The notes beneath the pieces are model-generated. The model did no database searches, was not told the origin of the DNA, and saw nothing but the letters and a program-made list of their open reading frames with translations. A stretch of 64,000 nt of DNA from Selenomonadales bacterium (GTDB lineage Bacteria > Bacillota > Negativicutes > Sporomusales > UBA7701), in contig JARKPR010000092.1 of the NCBI GenBank assembly GCA_029975165.1, positions 1-64,000 on the forward strand. The letters are read 5' to 3'. The translations under genes were made by a program, and so were the position numbers. Shown here piece by piece: positions 4,099 through 33,320 of the stretch; position 1 is the stretch's first letter, and the number at the start of each line of letters is the position of its first letter.

Positions 4099-4695
4099 TT
4101 ATTCCTTGCGAAATTGCAGGATGTAATATTCCTGGCTGTTTTCGACAAACTCCGCCTGGCAGCCGGCCGCCATCCCCAGGCGGCGCATCTCGCCGTCATC
4201 GGGGAGCTGATCCTGGGACACGAAGCTTTTCAGGCTGTGGTGAAAATGATTGATGTGCTCGCGGCCTTCGCTGTGGGCGACGAAGATCGATCCCGCCGGC
4301 TTGAGAACGCGGGCCATCTCCCGCAGCGCCGCCAGCTTATCGAGGAAGTGGGGAAAAGCGGAATAACAGACCACCCTGTCGAAGGTCCCGTCCTCGAAGG
4401 GCAGCGCCGCCACATCCGCCGTTTGCAGCCTGGCCAGGCCGGCATACTTCTCGCTGGCCCTGGCGATCATCCTGTCCGCGATGTCGACGGCGACCAAGGT
4501 CCCGTCCGGACCGATCCCCTCCCGCAAGAAGGGCAGCAGAACGCCCGTTCCCGTGCCGACATCGAGCACGGCCTGCCCCGGCTGCAGCTGCAGCCGGGCG
4601 GCGATGTGCGCCAATTTTTTTTGATCAGGCTTCGGCATGTTGTCCCACTCCGCCGCCAGATTGTTGAAGAACGTCTTATGATCCACGGCTTCCAC
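4099..4695 (-). CDS. Class I SAM-dependent methyltransferase
   Basis: This 198-residue protein is of the UbiE/Methyltransf_11 type. Motif I is VLDVGTGTGVLLPFL (about residues 44-58), followed by the acidic motif VAVDIADRM and the motif around PFEDGTFDRVVC (about 100-111). The acceptor is unknown. Its ATG lies inside the last 20 bases of the ECF S-component gene, so the two are translationally coupled. Position downstream of a TonB receptor and an S component suggests it modifies the imported cofactor or metallophore, or detoxifies a metal or metalloid, but neither is shown. Confidence 0.85.
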   Translation of the reverse strand: MEAVDHKTFFNNLAAEWDNMPKPDQKKLAHIAARLQLQPGQAVLDVGTGTGVLLPFLREGIGPDGTLVAVDIADRMIARASEKYAGLARLQTADVAALPFEDGTFDRVVCYSAFPHFLDKLAALREMARVLKPAGSIFVAHSEGREHINHFHHSLKSFVSQDQLPDDGEMRRLGMAAGCQAEFVENSQEYYILQFRKE

Positions 4696-5200
4696 CTGCC
4701 TGGTTGTATTTCTCCCATGCCTTCACCAGCACGGGGATGATAAACAATTGGACGACGATTCCCGGGATTCCTTTCACGATGCCGCCGGAAATAAAGGCCC
4801 ACACCGGTATATGGAAGCCAAGGAACAGGGTTCCCAGGTACAGGACTACGCCGGTGCCGATCCTGCCGACAATCATCGCGCCGATCAGCGCGGCGTAAAT
4901 ATTGCGCCCGCCGCGATACAGCATGCCGGCAGCAAGGCCGTAACACGCCAATTCCACGATCATCATCGGCAGCATCGGCGGCGACAGGGGCGGCATGCCG
5001 GTAAACAGGTGGCTCAATATCGGCGTCAACAGCCCCACCAGCAGCCCGTACCTGCCGCCCAGAATGAAGCCGGCCAGCAGAACGGGAATATGCATCGGCA
5101 AAAAGACGACGCCGCCGAATTGCAGCAGATGAAAACCGATGGGCAGGACAACGCCCAGGGCTACAAAAAAGCTCCCGTAAATAACCTTCGCTACCTGCAT
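4676..5200 (-). CDS. ECF transporter S component (substrate-binding membrane subunit)
   Basis: This 174-residue hydrophobic protein has about six membrane segments, the normal size of an energy-coupling-factor S component. The block LPMHIPVLLAGFILGGRYGL (about 35-54) followed by GLLTPILSHLFTGMPP is typical of the family: loop 1, helix 2 and the proline-rich loop before helix 4. A GGAGGGACGC ribosome site precedes the ATG. The substrate is not identifiable; vitamins or transition metals are usual. It lies 30 bases downstream of the TonB receptor stop and overlaps the methyltransferase, so the three form one operon. It may share the EcfA/EcfT encoded at 10.0-12.5 kb. Confidence 0.82.
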   Translation of the reverse strand: MQVAKVIYGSFFVALGVVLPIGFHLLQFGGVVFLPMHIPVLLAGFILGGRYGLLVGLLTPILSHLFTGMPPLSPPMLPMMIVELACYGLAAGMLYRGGRNIYAALIGAMIVGRIGTGVVLYLGTLFLGFHIPVWAFISGGIVKGIPGIVVQLFIIPVLVKAWEKYNQAGGSRGS

Positions 5201-5230: not shown

Positions 5231-7219
5231 TCAGATCTTTTGCTTGAGGCTTACGTAGTAGCAGCGGCCGGGCAGGGGATAGCCGAGCTGCTCGACATAG
5301 CGTTTGGCGAAGATGTTGTCGACGTACAGGCTGACCGACCTCGTATCGTCCAGCTGGCGGGTCAGGGAGAAATTGTGGACGGTGTAGCCGCCCATGTAGC
5401 TGGCCGTACCGGATGTGCCGTCCCTTTGCCGTCCGGCGTAATTGATGCTGTATTGGGCCTGCCACGGCTTGGCGTCATACAGGTAAGCCAGGCCGACCTT
5501 GTGCCGGGGCCGGTAATCGAGGTCGGCGTTGCCCTGGGTGGCGTGTTCGTTGGTGTAGTTGACCAGCAAGCTGTTGCGGGCATCGAACCTGATGTCGTTT
5601 TCCCACTCGATCCCCCATATTTTCGCCTGGTCGATGTTGTAGCAGTAGAAGGGGTAATTATGGGCAAAGTTGATGTAGTCGTCGATCTTCTGGTAGTATA
5701 CCGTCAGCTTGCTGGTATATTTCCCGCTGAAGCGGTGCTGGCCGCCGATTTCGTAGCTGTACCCGGACTCGGGCTTCAACGCGGCGTGAAAACCCGGGTT
5801 GGCCCCGCCTGTGTCATAATTGCGCGCCCACCAGTAGAATTCGGCCATGGACGGGGCGCGCCACAGGCGGTTGACCGACAGGAAGGTGGTGGTGCTGTCG
5901 TTGTTTTTGAACGCGAAATTCAGCTTGGGCGACAGGCTGCTGTATTTTTGGCCGAACGTTCGGTTATCGGCATGCCCGGTATCGTCCCTGCCGCCCAGGA
6001 AGTGGTCGTAGCGCAGGCCGACGTACCCGGTCCAGCGTTTGTCAAGCTGCCACGTCCTGTCCACGTAGGCGCCGAACAAATCGACTTTCTGCGAAGGATA
6101 GATATCGTGCGGGTCCGGCTGGGGCCAATCCTGCCAGCCGTAGCCGTAGCGCAGCCGTTTGTATTCCGCGCCGTAGCCGTACTTGGCGCCGTCGACCGTC
6201 TTGTCGCCGCTGAATTTGATACTGTCCGATTTGTCGGCGATAACGGTGCGGTCCAAGGCCACGGTGCCAGCGGCGTTATAAACGACCTCGCGGCGGCGTT
6301 CGTCGTTCCGCCAGTAGGCCAACGCCCATTGGCCGTCCTTTATCTGCCGGCGGTAGGTAAAGTCGTAGTAGTCGTTAATCTTCTCCCAGTAAGACCCCGG
6401 CTGCAAGGTTACGCCCATCACTCCGGGGGAGAGCGCTTCGCCGGCGCTTGCGGGATACCGCGGGTCGTAGTCGGGCGCTCCCGGAGTGTTGGCGAGGATA
6501 AAGCCCCGTCTGCTCTTGGTATGGTTTACGCCGAATTCCAGATTATCTTTGCCGGTTACGTCGTAGTTCAGCCGCAGGCCGTACTGGTCGGCGTCGTAAA
6601 AATTGTTCCGCAGAAAAGCGTCGGCGCCGGTCTGGTTGGCGGTGATCTGATAATGGAGCTTGGCGGCATTGCCGCTGTATTGGAACATATAATCGTACCG
6701 GCCGTTGCTGCCGCCGAGAATATTGATCTCCCCGCCGTCGGCGCCCTTGCTCCGCGTGACGATGTTGATCGTGCCGCCGAGGGTATTGCCGTCGCTGGCC
6801 AGTTTCCCGCCCTTCACGATCTGGATTTTCTCCACCGTATTCAGGGGGATGGTCGTCCAGTCGATATACTGGCCGCCCATAACGCCGGCGGTGTTTATCG
6901 GGCGGCCGTTCAGCATGACGGTAAAGCGGCGGGCGTCGAAACCGCGCAGCTTGACCGTCCCGTCCTGGTTGTCGCCGGCCACGGCGCGCTGCTGGATATC
7001 GATGCCGGCGGACATCCGCAATATCTCGGGGATGGTGGACGCTTTCCCCGGACTGACGACCTTGACGTTCACGGTGCTGCTGTCCACCGGCAACCGGTAG
7101 GCGTCGGCCTGAATGATTATTTCCTCCAGGGTGAAGCTGGGCGTTACCTCGGCGACAGCCGCCGGGGCATTCGCCAACAAACCTATGAATATGGCAACAG
7201 CCACAAAGTGTTTACGCAT
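5231..7219 (-). CDS. TonB-dependent outer-membrane receptor
   Basis: The chosen start at 7219 gives 662 residues beginning with a signal peptide (MRKHFVAVAIFIGLLANAP, cleavage near AVA). A longer frame to 7420 exists but would run through a terminator hairpin and lacks a signal at its start. A plug domain follows (PEILRMSAGIDIQQRAV, then VKLRGFDARRFTVMLNGRPI and GTINIVTRSK), then a 22-strand-type barrel rich in aromatic residues. Receptors of this kind import metal chelates or cofactors using TonB. The neighbours (CooT-type nickel protein, S component) point to a nickel, cobalt or related chelate, by inference. It sits behind a long leader with two terminator-like hairpins. Confidence 0.93.
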   Translation of the reverse strand: MRKHFVAVAIFIGLLANAPAAVAEVTPSFTLEEIIIQADAYRLPVDSSTVNVKVVSPGKASTIPEILRMSAGIDIQQRAVAGDNQDGTVKLRGFDARRFTVMLNGRPINTAGVMGGQYIDWTTIPLNTVEKIQIVKGGKLASDGNTLGGTINIVTRSKGADGGEINILGGSNGRYDYMFQYSGNAAKLHYQITANQTGADAFLRNNFYDADQYGLRLNYDVTGKDNLEFGVNHTKSRRGFILANTPGAPDYDPRYPASAGEALSPGVMGVTLQPGSYWEKINDYYDFTYRRQIKDGQWALAYWRNDERRREVVYNAAGTVALDRTVIADKSDSIKFSGDKTVDGAKYGYGAEYKRLRYGYGWQDWPQPDPHDIYPSQKVDLFGAYVDRTWQLDKRWTGYVGLRYDHFLGGRDDTGHADNRTFGQKYSSLSPKLNFAFKNNDSTTTFLSVNRLWRAPSMAEFYWWARNYDTGGANPGFHAALKPESGYSYEIGGQHRFSGKYTSKLTVYYQKIDDYINFAHNYPFYCYNIDQAKIWGIEWENDIRFDARNSLLVNYTNEHATQGNADLDYRPRHKVGLAYLYDAKPWQAQYSINYAGRQRDGTSGTASYMGGYTVHNFSLTRQLDDTRSVSLYVDNIFAKRYVEQLGYPLPGRCYYVSLKQKI

Positions 7220-7287: not shown

Positions 7288-7340
7288 AACAAAAACCACC
7301 AAGGGCATCGTAAATTCGTTTACGCAGCCCTTCGTGGTTG
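7288..7340 (-). terminator. Long hairpin with U-tract in the TonB-receptor leader
   Basis: On the minus strand the sequence from about 7338 to 7288 folds into a long stem (ACCAC, AAGGGC and CGTAAA pairing with TTTACG, GCCCTT and GTGGT) followed by TTTTTGTTTT. It lies between leader RNA B and the receptor start at 7219. Its 5' side, GGTTCAAATGGCAACCACG, resembles the 3' portion of leader elements A and B, so it may be a third, shortened copy of the element's expression platform. Confidence 0.75.
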
Positions 7341-7410: not shown

Positions 7411-7587
7411 AAAAAACCACGCAAGCCTCCCTTGGTGGGAGTCGGCCTTCGCGGCAACCGTCCTGAATGTGCGGTTTTAGACTGCGGGGACAATTTCCAA
7501 GCCTTCTGGCAGGGGCAAACGTCTTGTTCGCCGTTGTAAGCTTTCTCAGCTTTTGGAGATTAATTCGCTTTCAGGGGCAATATTCCT
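7411..7587 (-). ncRNA. Structured leader RNA, copy B (candidate riboswitch, class unknown)
   Basis: The minus-strand leader of the TonB-receptor gene contains a 177-base element that matches copy A (8331-8508) block by block at nearly identical spacing: AGGAATA near the 5' end, CCAGAAGG in the middle (7502-7509), a TCAGGA block (7461-7466), GCGAAGG, and a terminal hairpin ending GCGTGGTTTTTTGTTG. The terminal stem plus U-tract is an intrinsic terminator, as expected of a riboswitch expression platform. It lacks the GCCACTG box of cobalamin riboswitches and I could not place it in another known class. Confidence 0.6.
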
Positions 7588-7643
7588 CCCCCAGAAAGGC
7601 CATTTTTGAAAATATTTATCGCCGCCTCCGCAGCGGACAGGCT

Positions 7644-7838
7644 TTATTTCGGCAACCGCTCCAGAATGATGCGGTGGTCGACAAGCTGCAATTCCTTGAT
7701 CCGCCCCGCCACCGTCTTGCGCTGATCGAAGATGTTCCGCAGAAACACCTCGCCGGCGTTGGCGACAACCTCATCGACGCTTTCCAGCACCAGCACCTCC
7801 CGGCCGTCTTCATACAGATACGCGTTGGCTTCGCACAT
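7644..7838 (-). CDS. CooT-family nickel-binding protein
   Basis: The ATG at 7838 gives a 64-residue protein starting MCEANAYLYEDGREVLVLES, followed by FLRNIFDQRKTVAGRIKEL and VDHRIILE. This is the conserved pattern of the CooT family, small SH3-like proteins whose second-residue cysteine binds Ni(II); in Rhodospirillum CooT serves carbon monoxide dehydrogenase maturation. Cys2 is present. A longer frame to 7934 is rejected because it runs over the DUF3842 gene. The gene starts 2 bases after the DUF3842 stop, so the two are one unit. A nickel role for the whole locus is an inference from this gene. Confidence 0.88.
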   Translation of the reverse strand: MCEANAYLYEDGREVLVLESVDEVVANAGEVFLRNIFDQRKTVAGRIKELQLVDHRIILERLPK

Positions 7839-7840
7839 CC

Positions 7841-8257
7841 CTAATCCCTCCAGCTTTCTTTGATTTGCGCCAGCAAGGCGTCGATCAGATGGGGCAGCGG
7901 CTCGGTGCCGGCACCGATGACCGTTATGCCGCACCGGTTGATCGGCAGGAGCAGCTTCCTCGCCTTGCTGCGGCCAACAGCCTCCGCCATCGCCGGCGTA
8001 AGCTCGCCCAGCATCGAATGGGCGACGACTACGCCGATGGTGCCGACGATGATGTCCATCGCGGCCATATTCTGGACGATCGCGTTTTCGCCGGTAGCGC
8101 CTTCATTGGCTCCGGCCCTGAGCATCGCCGACGTTGCCAGAGCGTTGGTGCCGAAAGCGAAAATCTCCAGATTTTCGCCGAACTCTTTCCGCAGTCTTTC
8201 CGTGACGACCTTGCCGATGCCGCCGCCCTGCCCGTCAACAACAGCCACCTTCAACAA
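7841..8257 (-). CDS. DUF3842 family protein
   Basis: This 138-residue protein starts at a TTG behind a GGGAGTGGG ribosome site. It has an N-terminal dinucleotide-fold-like motif (VAVVDGQGGGIGKVVTERL, residues 4-22) and conserved blocks FGTNALATSAMLRAGAN and a C-terminal LPINRCGITVIGAG. The family is recognised as DUF3842; its function is unknown, although the glycine-rich start suggests nucleotide or cofactor binding. It is followed immediately by the CooT gene and preceded by leader RNA A, which suggests control by a ligand related to the metal or cofactor handled here. Confidence 0.85.
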   Translation of the reverse strand: MLKVAVVDGQGGGIGKVVTERLRKEFGENLEIFAFGTNALATSAMLRAGANEGATGENAIVQNMAAMDIIVGTIGVVVAHSMLGELTPAMAEAVGRSKARKLLLPINRCGITVIGAGTEPLPHLIDALLAQIKESWRD

Positions 8258-8330
8258 TACCCACTCCCACCCTCGTCTTCTACCCCGCCCTCACAGGCTT
8301 CAGCCGCTGCGAAGCCCGGAAAAACCCAAC

Positions 8331-8508
8331 AAAAAACCACGCACGGTTCCCTGCCTGCGGAAAACCTTCGTGGCCTCCATCCTGAAATATGCATTTATTA
8401 CCCGGGAATTACCCTCGAACCTTCTGGTCGTCACGGGCGCCGTCCTGCGGCTGCCGGCCATTCTTTGGCCTTTGGGTGAAAATGTTCTCTTTAAAGGCCG
8501 GTATTCCT
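8331..8508 (-). ncRNA. Structured leader RNA, copy A (candidate riboswitch, class unknown)
   Basis: This 178-base minus-strand element lies just upstream of DUF3842-cooT. It shares with copy B the blocks AGGAATA (5' end), CCAGAAGG (8420-8427), TTTCAGGATGG (around 8380-8388) and CCACGAAGG, and ends in an intrinsic terminator: CCACG..AGGTT pairing with GGAACC..CGTGG followed by TTTTTTG. Matching blocks fall within one or two bases of the same offsets in both copies. The region 8258-8330 between it and the gene has only the ribosome site and a second weak hairpin. Confidence 0.6.
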
Positions 8509-10910: not shown

Positions 10911-12540
10911 CCACCTCCTCAGCCGACAACGTCGTCCTGGCCAGCAGCGCCTCGCCGATGGCCGCCGCCGGCGGCGGCCTCACGCCGGCGGTCGCCAGCA
11001 GCCCGCCCCGGGCAAAAACCTGCCTTGGCCCGCCGTCCAGCAGCAGCCGGCCCTCTTTCATGACCAGCACCCTGCTCGCGTAGCCGGCGGCGAGCTCCGC
11101 GTCGTGGGTGCAAAAGACCACCACGCCGCCGGCGGCGGCAAAATCGCCGGCCAGCCCGGCGATCGCGCCGATATGGGCGTAGTCCTGGCCGGTGGTCGGC
11201 TCGTCCAGCAGCAGCACCGCCGGCCGGCAGGCCAACACAGCGGCCAGCGCCGTCCTCAGCCGCTGCCCCCGGCTGAGGGCCAGCGGGAAATCCCCGGCCT
11301 GAGCCTCCAGCCCCAGCCTTGCCAGCAAGTCGGCGACGATTTGCCGGTCGGCGGCCCCGAAGGCTATTTCGCGCTCGACCGTAGGGCAGAACAGCATAAG
11401 GTCGGGATTCTGCATCACCTGGCCCACCTGGCCCCGGCCGGCCAGGGGGCGGCCGCCGCGCACCCGCACCTCGCCGGCCCGCGGGACGAGCAGGCCGTTC
11501 AGCAGTTGGAGCAGCGTGCTCTTGCCGGCGCCGTTCGCGCCCATGACGGCGACGACCTCGCCCCGGCGGACGGTGAGCGAAACCCCGCCAAGCACGTCGG
11601 CACTCCGTTCGTTGTAGCGGAAATACACGTCCCGCAGGCTTATCAGCTCCTCGTTGGCCGCCGGCCGCGCAGTCGTCGCCGGCGCGGCGGCCGCCGCCGG
11701 TTTCAGCCGCGGCATGGCCGCCCTTATCTTGGCGACCGTTTCCTCGATCGACGTCGCCGGCGGCAAAAGGCCGAGGCCCAGGCAGACCGCCACCGGCTGG
11801 GGCAGGCGCAGCCCCCTGTCCAGCAGCAGCCGCGGCGTGCTGAAAAGGTCGGCCGCCGCCCCGTCCCAGGCAATCCGGCCGGCGTCCATCAGGACTATCC
11901 GCCGGCATACGGCGGCCACCTCCTGCAGCCGGTGCTCGACGATGACAACCGTGAGCCCCTTCTCCCGGTTGAGGCGCAACAGGAGCTCGAGCAGCGCGGA
12001 CGCTCCCAGGGGGTCGACCTGGCTGATCGGCTCGTCGAGTACGATCGCCCGCGGCCTGGCCGCCAGCACGGCCGCCAGCGCCAGCCGCTGCTTCTGGCCG
12101 CCCGACAGGGTGTGGACGCTGTCGTCTTCCTTGCCGGCCAGGCCGACATCCCGCAGGGTTTCCTTCACCCGGGCAGCGATAATCCCGGAATCCAGGCCGG
12201 CATTTTCCAGCACGAAGGCTACCTCGTCATAGACCCTGGTGGCGAAGATCTGGTCCTCGGGATTCTGGAACACCAGGCCCACCGACCGGCTCAGCTCCTG
12301 CACCGTCAGCTCCCGCGTGTCCCGGCCGCCAAGGCGGACGCGGCCGGTCATCGCGCCGCCGCTCTCGTGGGGGATCAGCCCGTTGAGGGCCTTGAGCAGC
12401 GTGCTCTTGCCGCAGCCCGTCCGGCCGGTTATCAGGACGAATTCGCCCTCGTCCACCGTCAGCGTTATGCCGGCGATGGTCGGCGAAGACCGACTGCCGT
12501 AGGTAAAGGTAAGCTTATCAATTTCGATCAGCGGCGCCAT
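10852..12540 (-). CDS. Double ECF ABC ATPase (two fused EcfA domains)
   Basis: The ATG at 12540 overlaps the TGA of the upstream gene and gives 562 residues. Two complete ABC ATPase domains are present. The first has Walker A GRTGCGKST (about 39-47), signature LSGGQKQRLAL and Walker B AIVLDEP. The second, after a proline/alanine linker, has GANGAGKST, a variant signature LSRGQRLRTAL and VLLLDEPTTGQD. This fused layout is known from YkoD-like ECF systems. It energises the EcfT encoded next to it. A longer frame upstream of 12540 is a shadow of the preceding gene. Confidence 0.93.
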   Translation of the reverse strand: MAPLIEIDKLTFTYGSRSSPTIAGITLTVDEGEFVLITGRTGCGKSTLLKALNGLIPHESGGAMTGRVRLGGRDTRELTVQELSRSVGLVFQNPEDQIFATRVYDEVAFVLENAGLDSGIIAARVKETLRDVGLAGKEDDSVHTLSGGQKQRLALAAVLAARPRAIVLDEPISQVDPLGASALLELLLRLNREKGLTVVIVEHRLQEVAAVCRRIVLMDAGRIAWDGAAADLFSTPRLLLDRGLRLPQPVAVCLGLGLLPPATSIEETVAKIRAAMPRLKPAAAAAPATTARPAANEELISLRDVYFRYNERSADVLGGVSLTVRRGEVVAVMGANGAGKSTLLQLLNGLLVPRAGEVRVRGGRPLAGRGQVGQVMQNPDLMLFCPTVEREIAFGAADRQIVADLLARLGLEAQAGDFPLALSRGQRLRTALAAVLACRPAVLLLDEPTTGQDYAHIGAIAGLAGDFAAAGGVVVFCTHDAELAAGYASRVLVMKEGRLLLDGGPRQVFARGGLLATAGVRPPPAAAIGEALLARTTLSAEEVVAGVQQAFVGSGSGPHACP

Positions 12541-14171
12541 CAGTCGCTCCCCACCGTCCGCAATTTTCGGCCGAGCACCACGCCGCAGAAACCGCCGATG
12601 CCCGAGTACAGGACGCCGTTCACGGCCACGACGGCATAGATGTACCAGTCCGCGTAGAAAACCCGGTACAGAAAAGACAGCGCGTGCAAGTTGAGATAAG
12701 TGCTCATCCCGTCGGCGGCGCTGCAGGCCAGCGCCACCGGCAGGCAGCGCTGCCAGCCGCCCGCCGTTTCGCCGCCGCTCCGGGCGGCCGTTATTCCCGC
12801 CAAATACAACAAGCCTTCCAGCAGCACGGCCTGAGTGCCGCACAGCAGCAGCGCCACCGGCGACGCATGGCCGAAAGCCAGCAGCCCCAGGAGCATCCGC
12901 ACCGCAAACAGCAACGCTGCGACTCCCGGCCGCGGGATGAGCACCACCAGGGCGGCCACCAGCATATAGAGGACCACGCCGTGGAACATGCCGGTGGCCA
13001 GAAAGGCCAGCGGCCCCATGAGCACGTGCAGCACCTCGCCCAGCAGGGTCGCCGGCACGTTCACCGCCGCGAAACAGACGGCCCCGAACAGCGTAATCGT
13101 TATCAGCCAGCGGGTTTTCAGGCCGGCGAATAACAGGCGCCGGCAGCGGGCGGCGACAACCAGCCCGCCAAGCACCATAACGGCGGCCGTCAGCGTCAGC
13201 GCCGCCGCCTTGCCGTCGCGGGCGACCACCGTGACCCCCCGCTCGGCCACGGCCACCGGTCGGCCGGCCTCCCGCGCCTCGACGCGGAGGACATACCGGC
13301 CGCCTTTCACCACATTTTCGTCGATATAAACCGGCAGCCTCACCGTCTGGCCGACCTCGCCGGACAAGGCGATGAACGCCGCCGTTTCCTCCCGGCTGCC
13401 GGCAAAGCCGCTGTTCTCCCGGTCGTCCGCGCCGGCTGCCGGCGTGAACATGCCCGGCACCGCCCGGCCCTCGCCGTCGAGCAGGCGCGAAACTACGGTC
13501 AGCAGCTTCTCGTCGCCGTCCGGGTTCACGAACTCGACGTTCATGCTTGTCAGGGGATGCACCGCTTCGGCCGCCTCATTGTATGCGCCCCGGCCCCGCA
13601 GGACGTTTTTATAGTAATCCAGCATTTGGTCGCGGAGAACGAGCGTCCCCGGGCTCAGGCGCTCGTCGGGATTGCCGGCATGGTCCACCGGCAGCACGAC
13701 CCTGGCGATCGACAACCCTTTGCCGCCAGCCTTGCTTTGCGGCCCGACCGTAATTTTTCTGGTTATCGTCCGCCGCCAGTCGCCGCAGGAAACCGTGACC
13801 GCCACCGCATGCTCGCCGGCCGCCAGCCCGCCGGTGTCGAACGCCAGCAGGTCGAACCACTGTCCGTATCCCCCTGGCAGGCGGACAACGCCGGCCATCC
13901 CGTCCGTCTCCGCCCGCCAGCCGTCCGGGAGCCTTGCCGGCGTCAGCCCCGTCGGCAGGGCGATCGCGATATGCACCTCCTTGTCGGCCGGCCCGGTATT
14001 CTCTACGGAAACGAGCCCTTTCAGGAGCGAGCCGCCGCGGCTTTCGCCGGCTCCGGCCGCAAAGCTGTAGGGAATATCCGCGGTGAAGGATATATCCTCC
14101 CGGTGCGCCATCGCCTGGCCGTGGCAGAAAAGGATCAGCCCGAGGGCAAAAGCGGTTATGCGGTTTCTCAT
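12540..14171 (-). CDS. Secreted NEW3-like domain fused to an ECF S-component-like membrane domain
   Basis: This 543-residue protein starts with a signal peptide (MRNRITAFALGLILFCHGQA). Residues about 25-320 form extracytoplasmic beta-domains with phrases such as GLVSVENTGPADKEVHIAI, resembling NEW3/CARDB-type domains. From about residue 335 there are six or seven membrane segments containing LIPRPGVAALLFAVRMLLG and CSAADGMSTYL, reminiscent of the YkoE/HmpT kind of S component. The stop overlaps the ATPase start (TGATG), and EcfT follows, so this is probably the substrate-binding subunit with an unusual periplasmic part. The cobalamin riboswitch upstream suggests a corrinoid ligand. The S-component call is inference from topology and context. 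Confidence 0.7.
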   Translation of the reverse strand: MRNRITAFALGLILFCHGQAMAHREDISFTADIPYSFAAGAGESRGGSLLKGLVSVENTGPADKEVHIAIALPTGLTPARLPDGWRAETDGMAGVVRLPGGYGQWFDLLAFDTGGLAAGEHAVAVTVSCGDWRRTITRKITVGPQSKAGGKGLSIARVVLPVDHAGNPDERLSPGTLVLRDQMLDYYKNVLRGRGAYNEAAEAVHPLTSMNVEFVNPDGDEKLLTVVSRLLDGEGRAVPGMFTPAAGADDRENSGFAGSREETAAFIALSGEVGQTVRLPVYIDENVVKGGRYVLRVEAREAGRPVAVAERGVTVVARDGKAAALTLTAAVMVLGGLVVAARCRRLLFAGLKTRWLITITLFGAVCFAAVNVPATLLGEVLHVLMGPLAFLATGMFHGVVLYMLVAALVVLIPRPGVAALLFAVRMLLGLLAFGHASPVALLLCGTQAVLLEGLLYLAGITAARSGGETAGGWQRCLPVALACSAADGMSTYLNLHALSFLYRVFYADWYIYAVVAVNGVLYSGIGGFCGVVLGRKLRTVGSD

Positions 14172-16215: not shown

Positions 16216-16280
16216 AGGATTCAGCGCAAAGCTTGCGTCGAGAATCTCCTCCCCATCGTTCGTGGGTAATAACGGTGATT

Positions 16281-16442
16281 GTCAGACAGGCAGTTCTCCT
16301 GGCTCTGGATCATCGCTCCCCCGAACCTTCCCAAGACTCTCGTCCCAGTGGCGTACACTCGGGTTTGCTCCCCAATACAGTGGCGGGACCGCGCCGGCGT
16401 TTGACCGGACTTCCCTATTAAGCCCCGTAGGGCACCTATCCC
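16281..16442 (-). promoter_or_regulatory. Cobalamin (B12) riboswitch
   Basis: On the minus strand the region carries the class hallmarks in order: GGGAAGTCCGGT, CGCGGTCCCGCCACTGTA (the GCCACTG box), GCCACTGGGACGAGAG, GGGAAGG and finally AGCCAGGAGAACTGCCTGTC (the B12 box, near 16282-16305). It is followed by an intrinsic terminator and then the TonB receptor. Binding of a cobalamin should switch off the receptor/ECF operon from 16.1 to 8.6 kb. Confidence 0.95.
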
Positions 16443-16492
16443 ACATATTAAGTTGTCCTGATATTGGAATATTCCAGGTAAATAATACCATA

Positions 16493-23249: not shown

Positions 23250-23335
23250 TCAGCCGCAACCTGGCAATCGTAGGCGGAAACCCGCCTTTAGACCCATAGC
23301 TTTGCGCCCTTACCTTTCGGATAAGTTTGCCTCAT
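23250..23335 (-). promoter_or_regulatory. Cyclic di-GMP-I (GEMM) riboswitch
   Basis: Read on the minus strand from 23335 the sequence runs GAGGCAAACTTATCC, GAAAGGTAAGGGCGCAAAGC, TATGGGTCTAAAGG, then CGCCTACGATTGCCAGGTTG. This matches the class consensus: GGCAAACC-type start, GNAA tetraloop (CGAAAG), the conserved GACGCAAAGC-like core, the GGTCTAAA joining strand, and the receptor helix ending in a GCC-GGTTG segment. It precedes the PAS-PucR gene by about 90 bases, so that gene should respond to c-di-GMP, possibly made by the neighbouring diguanylate cyclase. Confidence 0.88.
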
Positions 23336-23483
23336 CATGACATTAGCTCCTGAAATTCGCTATTTGCCTGATAATTCCTGCATCCAATCATTCTTAGATA
23401 ATAGTTTATTTTTGTTTTTTAAATACCGCAGCTCGTCTTCACTGCTGGAAACCCTTTTACACCCACGTCTAACGTGGTTTTCT

Positions 23484-31330: not shown

Positions 31331-31401
31331 ACTCCTACCAACGAGTGTTGGTAGGAGTCATTACCTGCCGGCGCAGGATGCGGCGAACTCCATCGCCCTG
31401 T
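31331..31401 (-). promoter_or_regulatory. Fluoride riboswitch (crcB motif) upstream of the MutS-like genes
   Basis: On the minus strand the sequence reads GGGCGATGGAGTTCGCC, then CTGCGCCGGCAGGTAATGAC and CTCCTACC, the fluoride-aptamer consensus (GGCGATGGNGTTCGCC, then ...TAATGACTCCTACC). The CTCCTACCAAC strand then pairs with GTTGGTAGGAG to form an intrinsic terminator ending TTTGTGTTTT. Fluoride binding should prevent termination and turn on the leftward operon. Confidence 0.95.
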
Positions 31402-31415
31402 ATTAAAGTACTTAA

Positions 31416-31500: not shown

Positions 31501-31512
31501 TGAACCAAGTGA

Positions 31513-31600
31513 AAAGAGCGATGGGGTTCGCTCATCAAAAACCTGGTTTTCAGGGTAATGACTCCTACATCAAGGTGTGGGATTCGTTACCCCTTTTAAT
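31513..31600 (+). promoter_or_regulatory. Fluoride riboswitch upstream of enolase
   Basis: AGAGCGATGGGGTTCGCTC (from 31514) is followed by an ACCT/AGGG-type stem and GGTAATGACTCCTAC (31554-31568), the fluoride-aptamer consensus. GGGTAATGA and CTACA then pair with TGTGG and CGTTACCC (to about 31593), followed by CTTTT, to form the terminator. This copy's terminator reuses the aptamer strand, so binding and termination are mutually exclusive. Confidence 0.92.
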
Positions 31601-33236: not shown

Positions 33237-33320
33237 AATAGCAGAGGCGATGGAGTTCGCCGTAAGTCCGCCGCTGGCGGTAATGACTCCTACCAGGAAA
33301 ACTGGTAGGAGTCATTTTAT
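33237..33320 (+). promoter_or_regulatory. Fluoride riboswitch upstream of the GTPase-antiporter operon
   Basis: GAGGCGATGGAGTTCGCC (33243-33260), a CCGCC/GGCGG stem and GGTAATGACTCCTACC (33279-33294) match the fluoride-aptamer consensus. ATGACTCCTACCAG (33283-33296) pairs perfectly with CTGGTAGGAGTCAT (33302-33315), followed by TTTATTT: an intrinsic terminator that overlaps the aptamer's last strand. A further GC-rich hairpin lies at 33322-33341 before the ribosome site. Confidence 0.95.

Follow-up and report, generated by a model that had tools for sequence, protein, structure and literature searches.

Nickel is needed for acetogenesis (CO dehydrogenase/acetyl-CoA synthase), for hydrogenases and for lactate racemase. 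We know of no nickel regulator in the anaerobes considered here, and a literature search for one gave none. Among described leader RNAs the nickel theme belongs to the NiCo (czcD) riboswitch, a metal-gene leader in which a four-way-junction aptamer switches efflux genes on. Small hairpins with short conserved loops are found in mini-ykkC (guanidine-II), whose pair of ACGR-loop hairpins was at first believed to be bound by protein and later proved to be a riboswitch, and, to judge from its name, in the TwoAYGGAY RNA motif, with a conserved purine-rich loop in each of two hairpins. A published account of mini-ykkC described the hairpins as suggestive of protein binding (PMC2864571). In the sites bound by ANTAR proteins, an additional 20 nt in the linker between the hairpins kills antitermination.

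Here we describe two leader RNAs, L1 and L2, which we believe, with a probability of roughly 60%, to belong to a new family of leaders that attenuate the transcription of a nickel regulon, and in which an RNA-binding factor antiterminates when nickel is low.

Two leaders and a partial third copy

Both leaders are on the minus strand of the window, by which we mean the whole 64,000-nucleotide stretch of DNA that was analysed, L1 (8331-8508) ahead of the DUF3842-CooT genes and L2 (7411-7587) ahead of a TonB receptor gene. The order on this strand is L1, DUF3842, CooT, then L2 and a third, partial copy (L3), followed by the TonB receptor, ECF-S and methyltransferase genes:

8331..8375, minus strand: L1 intrinsic terminator with U6 (sequence, fold, pattern search)
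7841..8257, minus strand: DUF3842 gene (Pfam PF12953, E 7e-55)
7644..7838, minus strand: CooT gene, start MCEAN (Pfam PF10133, E 8e-23; PDB 6fan CooT, E 1.4e-13)
7411..7455, minus strand: L2 intrinsic terminator with U6 (sequence, fold, pattern search)
7290..7340, minus strand: L3, third partial copy, CCACGAAGG terminator (sequence, fold, relaxed-pattern genome search)
5231..7219, minus strand: TonB-dependent receptor gene (profile match; ortholog loci in relatives)
4676..5200, minus strand: ECF transporter substrate-binding component gene (Pfam PF12822; orientation shared with the TonB receptor)
4099..4695, minus strand: class I methyltransferase gene (profile match)

A preliminary description of this DNA had proposed that the two leaders are homologous, that each ends in a terminator and that they belong to no identified class, and this was borne out. 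Global and local alignment scores of L1 against L2 were above those of all of 1000 dinucleotide shuffles and stayed above all shuffles when the terminators were removed (local score 44, shuffled mean 20, maximum 38); the block order AGGAATA, CCAGAAGG, TTCAGGA, CGAAGG and a GCGTGG-U6 end was confirmed in both, and both close with U6 intrinsic terminators. An Rfam 15 scan of the window leaders found nothing at the gathering threshold and nothing notable to E 10. The leaders of relatives had no Rfam 15 match either, guanidine-II and the Moco, NiCo and cobalamin models that the preliminary description had singled out included. The pattern CCRNGAAGG-N10..42-TGGYTTTT, run over the 4.19-Mb genome, gave three matches, which are L1, L2 and L3, and none in the control. 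The third hairpin pointed out earlier does repeat the 3' part of the leaders; this copy lacks the upstream hairpin, with no (N)NGAA hairpin found upstream of L3.

Several known riboswitches are also present in the window: a cobalamin riboswitch (108 bits; 16272-16454, minus strand) ahead of a second TonB receptor and an ECF-type cluster, a c-di-GMP-I riboswitch (65 bits; 23252-23341, minus strand) and, within 2 kb, three fluoride riboswitches (31345-31406, minus strand; 31508-31574 and 33237-33299, plus strand), two of which are divergent.

Promoters and hairpins of L1 and L2

The elements of the two leaders are as follows, in the order in which they are read:

8482..8508, minus strand: L1 sigma-H-type promoter AGGA-N17-GAAC, containing block AGGAATA (sequence; spacing count)
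8456..8470, minus strand: L1 upstream hairpin H1, GGCCA-[AAGAA]-TGGCC (sequence; covariation with relatives, alignment A6)
8436..8455, minus strand: L1 hairpin GGCaGCCG-[CAGGA]-CGGCGCC (fold; L2 counterpart with other stem)
8416..8430, minus strand: L1 small hairpin ACC-[AGAA]-GGU, block CCAGAAGG (fold; L2 counterpart)
8360..8378, minus strand: L1 last hairpin H2, GGAGGCC-[ACGAA]-GGUUUUC, candidate antiterminator (fold of RNA without the terminator 3' arm)
7560..7587, minus strand: L2 sigma-H-type promoter AGGA-N17-GAATTAA (sequence; spacing count)
7538..7552, minus strand: L2 upstream hairpin H1, AAGCT-[GAGAA]-AGCTT (sequence, fold, covariation)
7514..7532, minus strand: L2 hairpin GGCGAAC-[AAGAC]-GTTTGCC (hairpin test, fold)
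7501..7510, minus strand: L2 small hairpin GCC-[AGAA]-GGC, block CCAGAAGG (fold)
7441..7458, minus strand: L2 last hairpin H2, GUUGCC-[GCGAA]-GGC(C)GAC, candidate antiterminator (sequence, hand-drawn pairing)

The block AGGAATA had been placed within the RNA by the preliminary description. From AGGA to GAA there are exactly 17 nt in both leaders (8508-8485 and 7587-7564), which we take to be the sigma-H (Spo0H) layout RNAGGAWWW-N11-12-RNNGAATWW, and by this spacing the block is part of a sigma-H-type promoter upstream of the transcript; its reading as a structured stem was dropped after the spacing count. AGGA-N17-GAA is found in 10 of 70 distinct family leaders, each of the other spacings from 12 to 23 giving 0-3, and the strict promoter pattern matches the two window sites only; about 30 family members have sigma-A-like promoters instead. 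Because AGGAATA is promoter, the RNA would start near 8475 in L1 and near 7555 in L2 and would be about 145-150 nt long rather than the roughly 178 first given for the leader. Elsewhere in the window's genome, a third AGGA-N17-GAA site (L090, G000:C99:60200-60223) stands before a flavodoxin-like gene with the rest of the leader absent.

Hairpin order is common to L1 and L2, with loops that are alike and stems that differ. The terminator 5' arm, CC[A/G]NGAAGG, is also able to form the last (N)NGAA hairpin, and this combination of H2 and overlapping terminator is present in L1, L2 and L3; judged from sequence, the two structures are mutually exclusive. In RNA ending ahead of the terminator 3' arm, H2 of L1, which overlaps the terminator 5' arm, forms with 7 bp. 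H2 of L2 overlaps the 5' arm likewise and has one bulged base, and it is not part of the minimum-energy structure of the correspondingly shortened L2 RNA. CsrA sites were considered for the CAGGA loops in L1 and set aside, most loops having GAA rather than GGA.

A family with conserved loops

A DNA similarity search with L1 against 200 relatives gave no match because conservation is confined to the loops. The terminator arm recurs at the relatives' TonB receptor and DUF3842 ortholog loci, together with a 5' hairpin whose loop is AAGAA or UGAA. With the pattern CCANGAAGG-N12..42-TGGNTTTTT, 14 of the 28 genomes of the order yielded about 50 matches in all, and the reversed control 1; the same search over 380 genomes of the class yielded more true members among chance matches within genes, and a relaxed pattern found members also in Syntrophomonas-, Desulfallas- and Heliobacteriaceae-type genomes, besides Negativicutes-like ones. 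The leaders are a more widespread phenomenon than first reported. A similar terminator arm, AAGCCACGAAGGC, stands ahead of DUF3842 in a deltaproteobacterial MAG (L072:3707), and the family may extend past Bacillota. We found no earlier description of these leaders in the open-access literature.

For a test of the upstream hairpin, 57 distinct members were picked by the H2 and terminator pattern alone. Of these, 41 carry upstream a hairpin that has 5 bp or more and an NGAA or NNGAA loop (200 shuffles: mean 0.74, maximum 4), and GAA is the top of the 64 loop trinucleotides in upstream hairpins, with 41 occurrences to 8 for the runner-up; the other 16 members have no (N)NGAA H1 of 5 bp. Stems covary strongly across relatives: H1 positions are 92% paired in alignment A4, where 6 of 7 pairs differ at both positions, and 97% paired in alignment A6, which includes L1 and L2 and where 6 of 6 pairs do so (score 0.985 against 0.31 shuffled), figures biased toward structure by the hand-centring of each H1 on its loop, whereas the 57-member test is the unbiased one. 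These are the compensatory changes that the preliminary description had proposed to look for, and its view that the differing sequence between the blocks reflects a structured RNA agrees with them.

The H1 loops are TGAA, AAGAA, ATGAA, AGAA and CGAA, the first three being the commonest, and the H2 loops are ATGAA, ACGAA, GCGAA and AGGAA. Loops have 4 or 5 nt, hairpins number 1-4, and the linker from H1 to H2 is 7-86 nt, mostly 33-68; the Syntrophomonas leaders L068 and L071 have no upstream H1 and carry a hairpin within the terminator instead. The conserved unit is a repeated small (N)NGAA-loop hairpin placed 7-86 nt from the last hairpin. Nothing in the leaders points to a ligand-binding aptamer, and such hairpins look more like protein-binding sites in tandem than like one aptamer fold.

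Genes behind the leaders

The majority of family leaders precede nickel genes, gene class at most loci having been judged by eye. NikA-type binding proteins and NikB/NikC permeases follow leaders L199, L200, L218-L222, L230, L250, L255, L257-L260, L263 and L283; NikM/CbiM follows L223, L248, L249, L290, L291, L297 and L304; FecBCD-type importers follow L251, L253 and L289, and LarC, above the TIGR00299 and NF052512 cut-offs, follows L265. The representative NikA passes the curated cut-off TIGR02294 (725 against 393) and NikB passes NF045470 at L255 and L260, while other NikA-like proteins score under these cut-offs. Further leader-borne genes encode ExbB-ExbD-TonB, TonB receptors, ECF-S with a methyltransferase (a pair found behind leaders in G025 and G004 also) and DUF3842 with or without CooT. 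Orthologs of the window's TonB receptor, at 60-63% identity, sit behind related leaders in other genomes. In Helicobacter, TonB/ExbB/ExbD-energised nickel uptake is known, according to work cited in PMC11247825.

The metal theme of the preliminary description holds, and the gene contexts in relatives point to nickel. Nickel genes as the leader targets are well supported, as is the membership of L1 and L2 in a family of nickel-gene attenuators, of which L3 is a partial member; what the sequences themselves show is the existence of the family, with its hairpins and terminators and the genes that it accompanies. That the leaders are ordinary look-alike terminators without regulation is very unlikely. 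Terminators are common, and L3 consists of the terminator part alone, but generic terminators would not be expected to come with a distinct hairpin upstream whose loop is conserved, with covariation or with this gene context, and the leaders are positioned between promoter and first gene.

NikM/CbiM and the TonB receptors could serve cobalt. At several leader-bearing loci cobalamin riboswitches sit separately, so that cobalt/B12 genes appear to have a separate switch, and cobalt/B12 is the less likely signal for these leaders. Non-nickel targets are a short-chain dehydrogenase (L231), a lactate/malate dehydrogenase (L247) and a porin-like protein (L246); our guess is that they are nickel-sparing substitutes. 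Leader-controlled operons with lactate/malate dehydrogenase and short-chain dehydrogenase are seen at L247, L261 and L231.

Other loci deserve mention. A protein without a Pfam family is encoded at 12540-14171 of the window (minus strand) and shows 30-35% identity to proteins of 594-628 residues that lie behind the leader type of L1 and L2 in G002 (L256) and G016 (L264). Between the tandem leaders L165 and L214 (G022:C70), ahead of a TonB receptor, there are ExbB/ExbD-like remnants that look like what is left of a decayed exbBD-tonB operon. At L145 (G018:C1:642597-643735) the TonB receptor ortholog is split in two, with an in-frame TGA, and may be a pseudogene.

Proposed attenuation and its reader

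We infer that H2 is an antiterminator, that a protein acts on the loops, and that low nickel is the signal, with control in the following direction. The leader RNA would begin at a sigma-H promoter (in the window) or a sigma-A promoter (elsewhere), and at least one short (N)NGAA-loop hairpin (H1) would form first. H2, with its loop [A/G]NGAA, would form last, its 5' half being common to H2 and the terminator. In the default state the stabler terminator would fold and transcription would end. When nickel is scarce, an RNA-binding factor would read the (N)NGAA loops, load on H1 and then hold H2, by which the terminator would be blocked and the uptake or handling gene transcribed. A trans-acting RNA-binding factor would be the simplest reader because the loop is kept while stems, hairpin number and spacing vary, and it should act at low nickel because the targets are uptake genes.

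The hairpins might instead form a direct riboswitch, docking in pairs via their (N)NGAA loops and binding Ni2+ or a nickel cofactor as in guanidine-II. The leaders do have repeated small hairpins with conserved purine-rich loops and nickel genes downstream, and mini-ykkC is a reminder that small hairpins in pairs may turn out to be a riboswitch. We consider it unlikely, however, as hairpin number (1-4) and spacing (7-86 nt) vary widely, loop size varies between 4 and 5 nt, and nickel binding that stabilised H2 would turn uptake on with nickel present, the opposite of the uptake need.

If a protein reads the loops, a two-component ANTAR antiterminator binding the dual loops has to be weighed. 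The plan is like that of EutV targets, where the second of two small hairpins overlaps the terminator (PMC3369931), and 12 of 14 leader-bearing genomes encode ANTAR proteins. The leader loops, though, have 4-5 nt with G before AA where ANTAR targets follow a hexaloop rule (A1, G4), the linkers are mostly 33-68 nt where the rule is 5-12 nt, and the leader-bearing genomes G380 and G381, which may be incomplete, have no ANTAR match. After being tested, this reading was lowered, and it is in our view quite improbable.

The most far-reaching proposal for the reader, which we hold to be less likely than not, is an RNA-binding protein that responds to nickel, DUF3842 or CooT being candidates, and that would read the (N)NGAA loops and antiterminate the whole nickel regulon. 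In its specific form, in which DUF3842 (or CooT) is itself the nickel-responsive RNA-binding antiterminator, also of its own gene, the proposal is doubtful. The leader is found at both types of DUF3842 gene, and every leader-bearing genome tested has DUF3842, linked or unlinked (19 of 19 in a 60-genome set; hypergeometric 4e-6, kinship uncorrected). CooT is a nickel-binding dimer that takes one Ni per dimer with a Kd of 9 nM (PMC6006190). On the other hand, the predicted model of DUF3842 is Rossmann-like, an RNA-binding fold being absent among the matches listed, and DUF3842 is also present in G095 and G137, where the leader search found none. CooT has no match in the leader-bearing genomes G003, G005, G010 and G021, and as sole regulator it was lowered by its absence from such genomes.

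If a nickel-responsive protein does read the loops, uptake genes in several Bacillota classes would be under a nickel sensor that is the first of its kind to work at the level of RNA. The shared RNA signature defines a nickel regulon and makes the sensor findable, and it links DUF3842, the TonB/ECF-S/methyltransferase cluster and a 600-residue membrane protein to nickel.

Comparison with described systems

The NiCo (czcD) riboswitch has the nickel theme and the metal-gene leader in common with L1 and L2, but the leaders here have no match to the NiCo Rfam model. TwoAYGGAY, going by its table entry, has the loop AYGGAY and is not listed as cis-regulatory; the present leaders are without an Rfam match. 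Guanidine-II (mini-ykkC) resembles the leaders in having a pair of small hairpins whose short loop is conserved and differs in that the loop is ACGR and the genes are for guanidine transport, whereas the loop here is (N)NGAA and Rfam gives no match. The ANTAR-target RNAs (EutV, NasR, AmiR) share two conserved-loop hairpins, the second exclusive with the terminator, and antitermination; their hexaloops (A1/G4) and linkers of 5-12 contrast with the 4-5-nt (N)NGAA loops, the linkers of mostly 33-68 and the nickel genes of our leaders. NikR and other nickel repressors also govern nickel uptake, including outer-membrane receptors in Helicobacter, according to references in PMC11247825, but NikR and its kin are DNA-binding repressors, whereas the system described here consists of leader RNAs.
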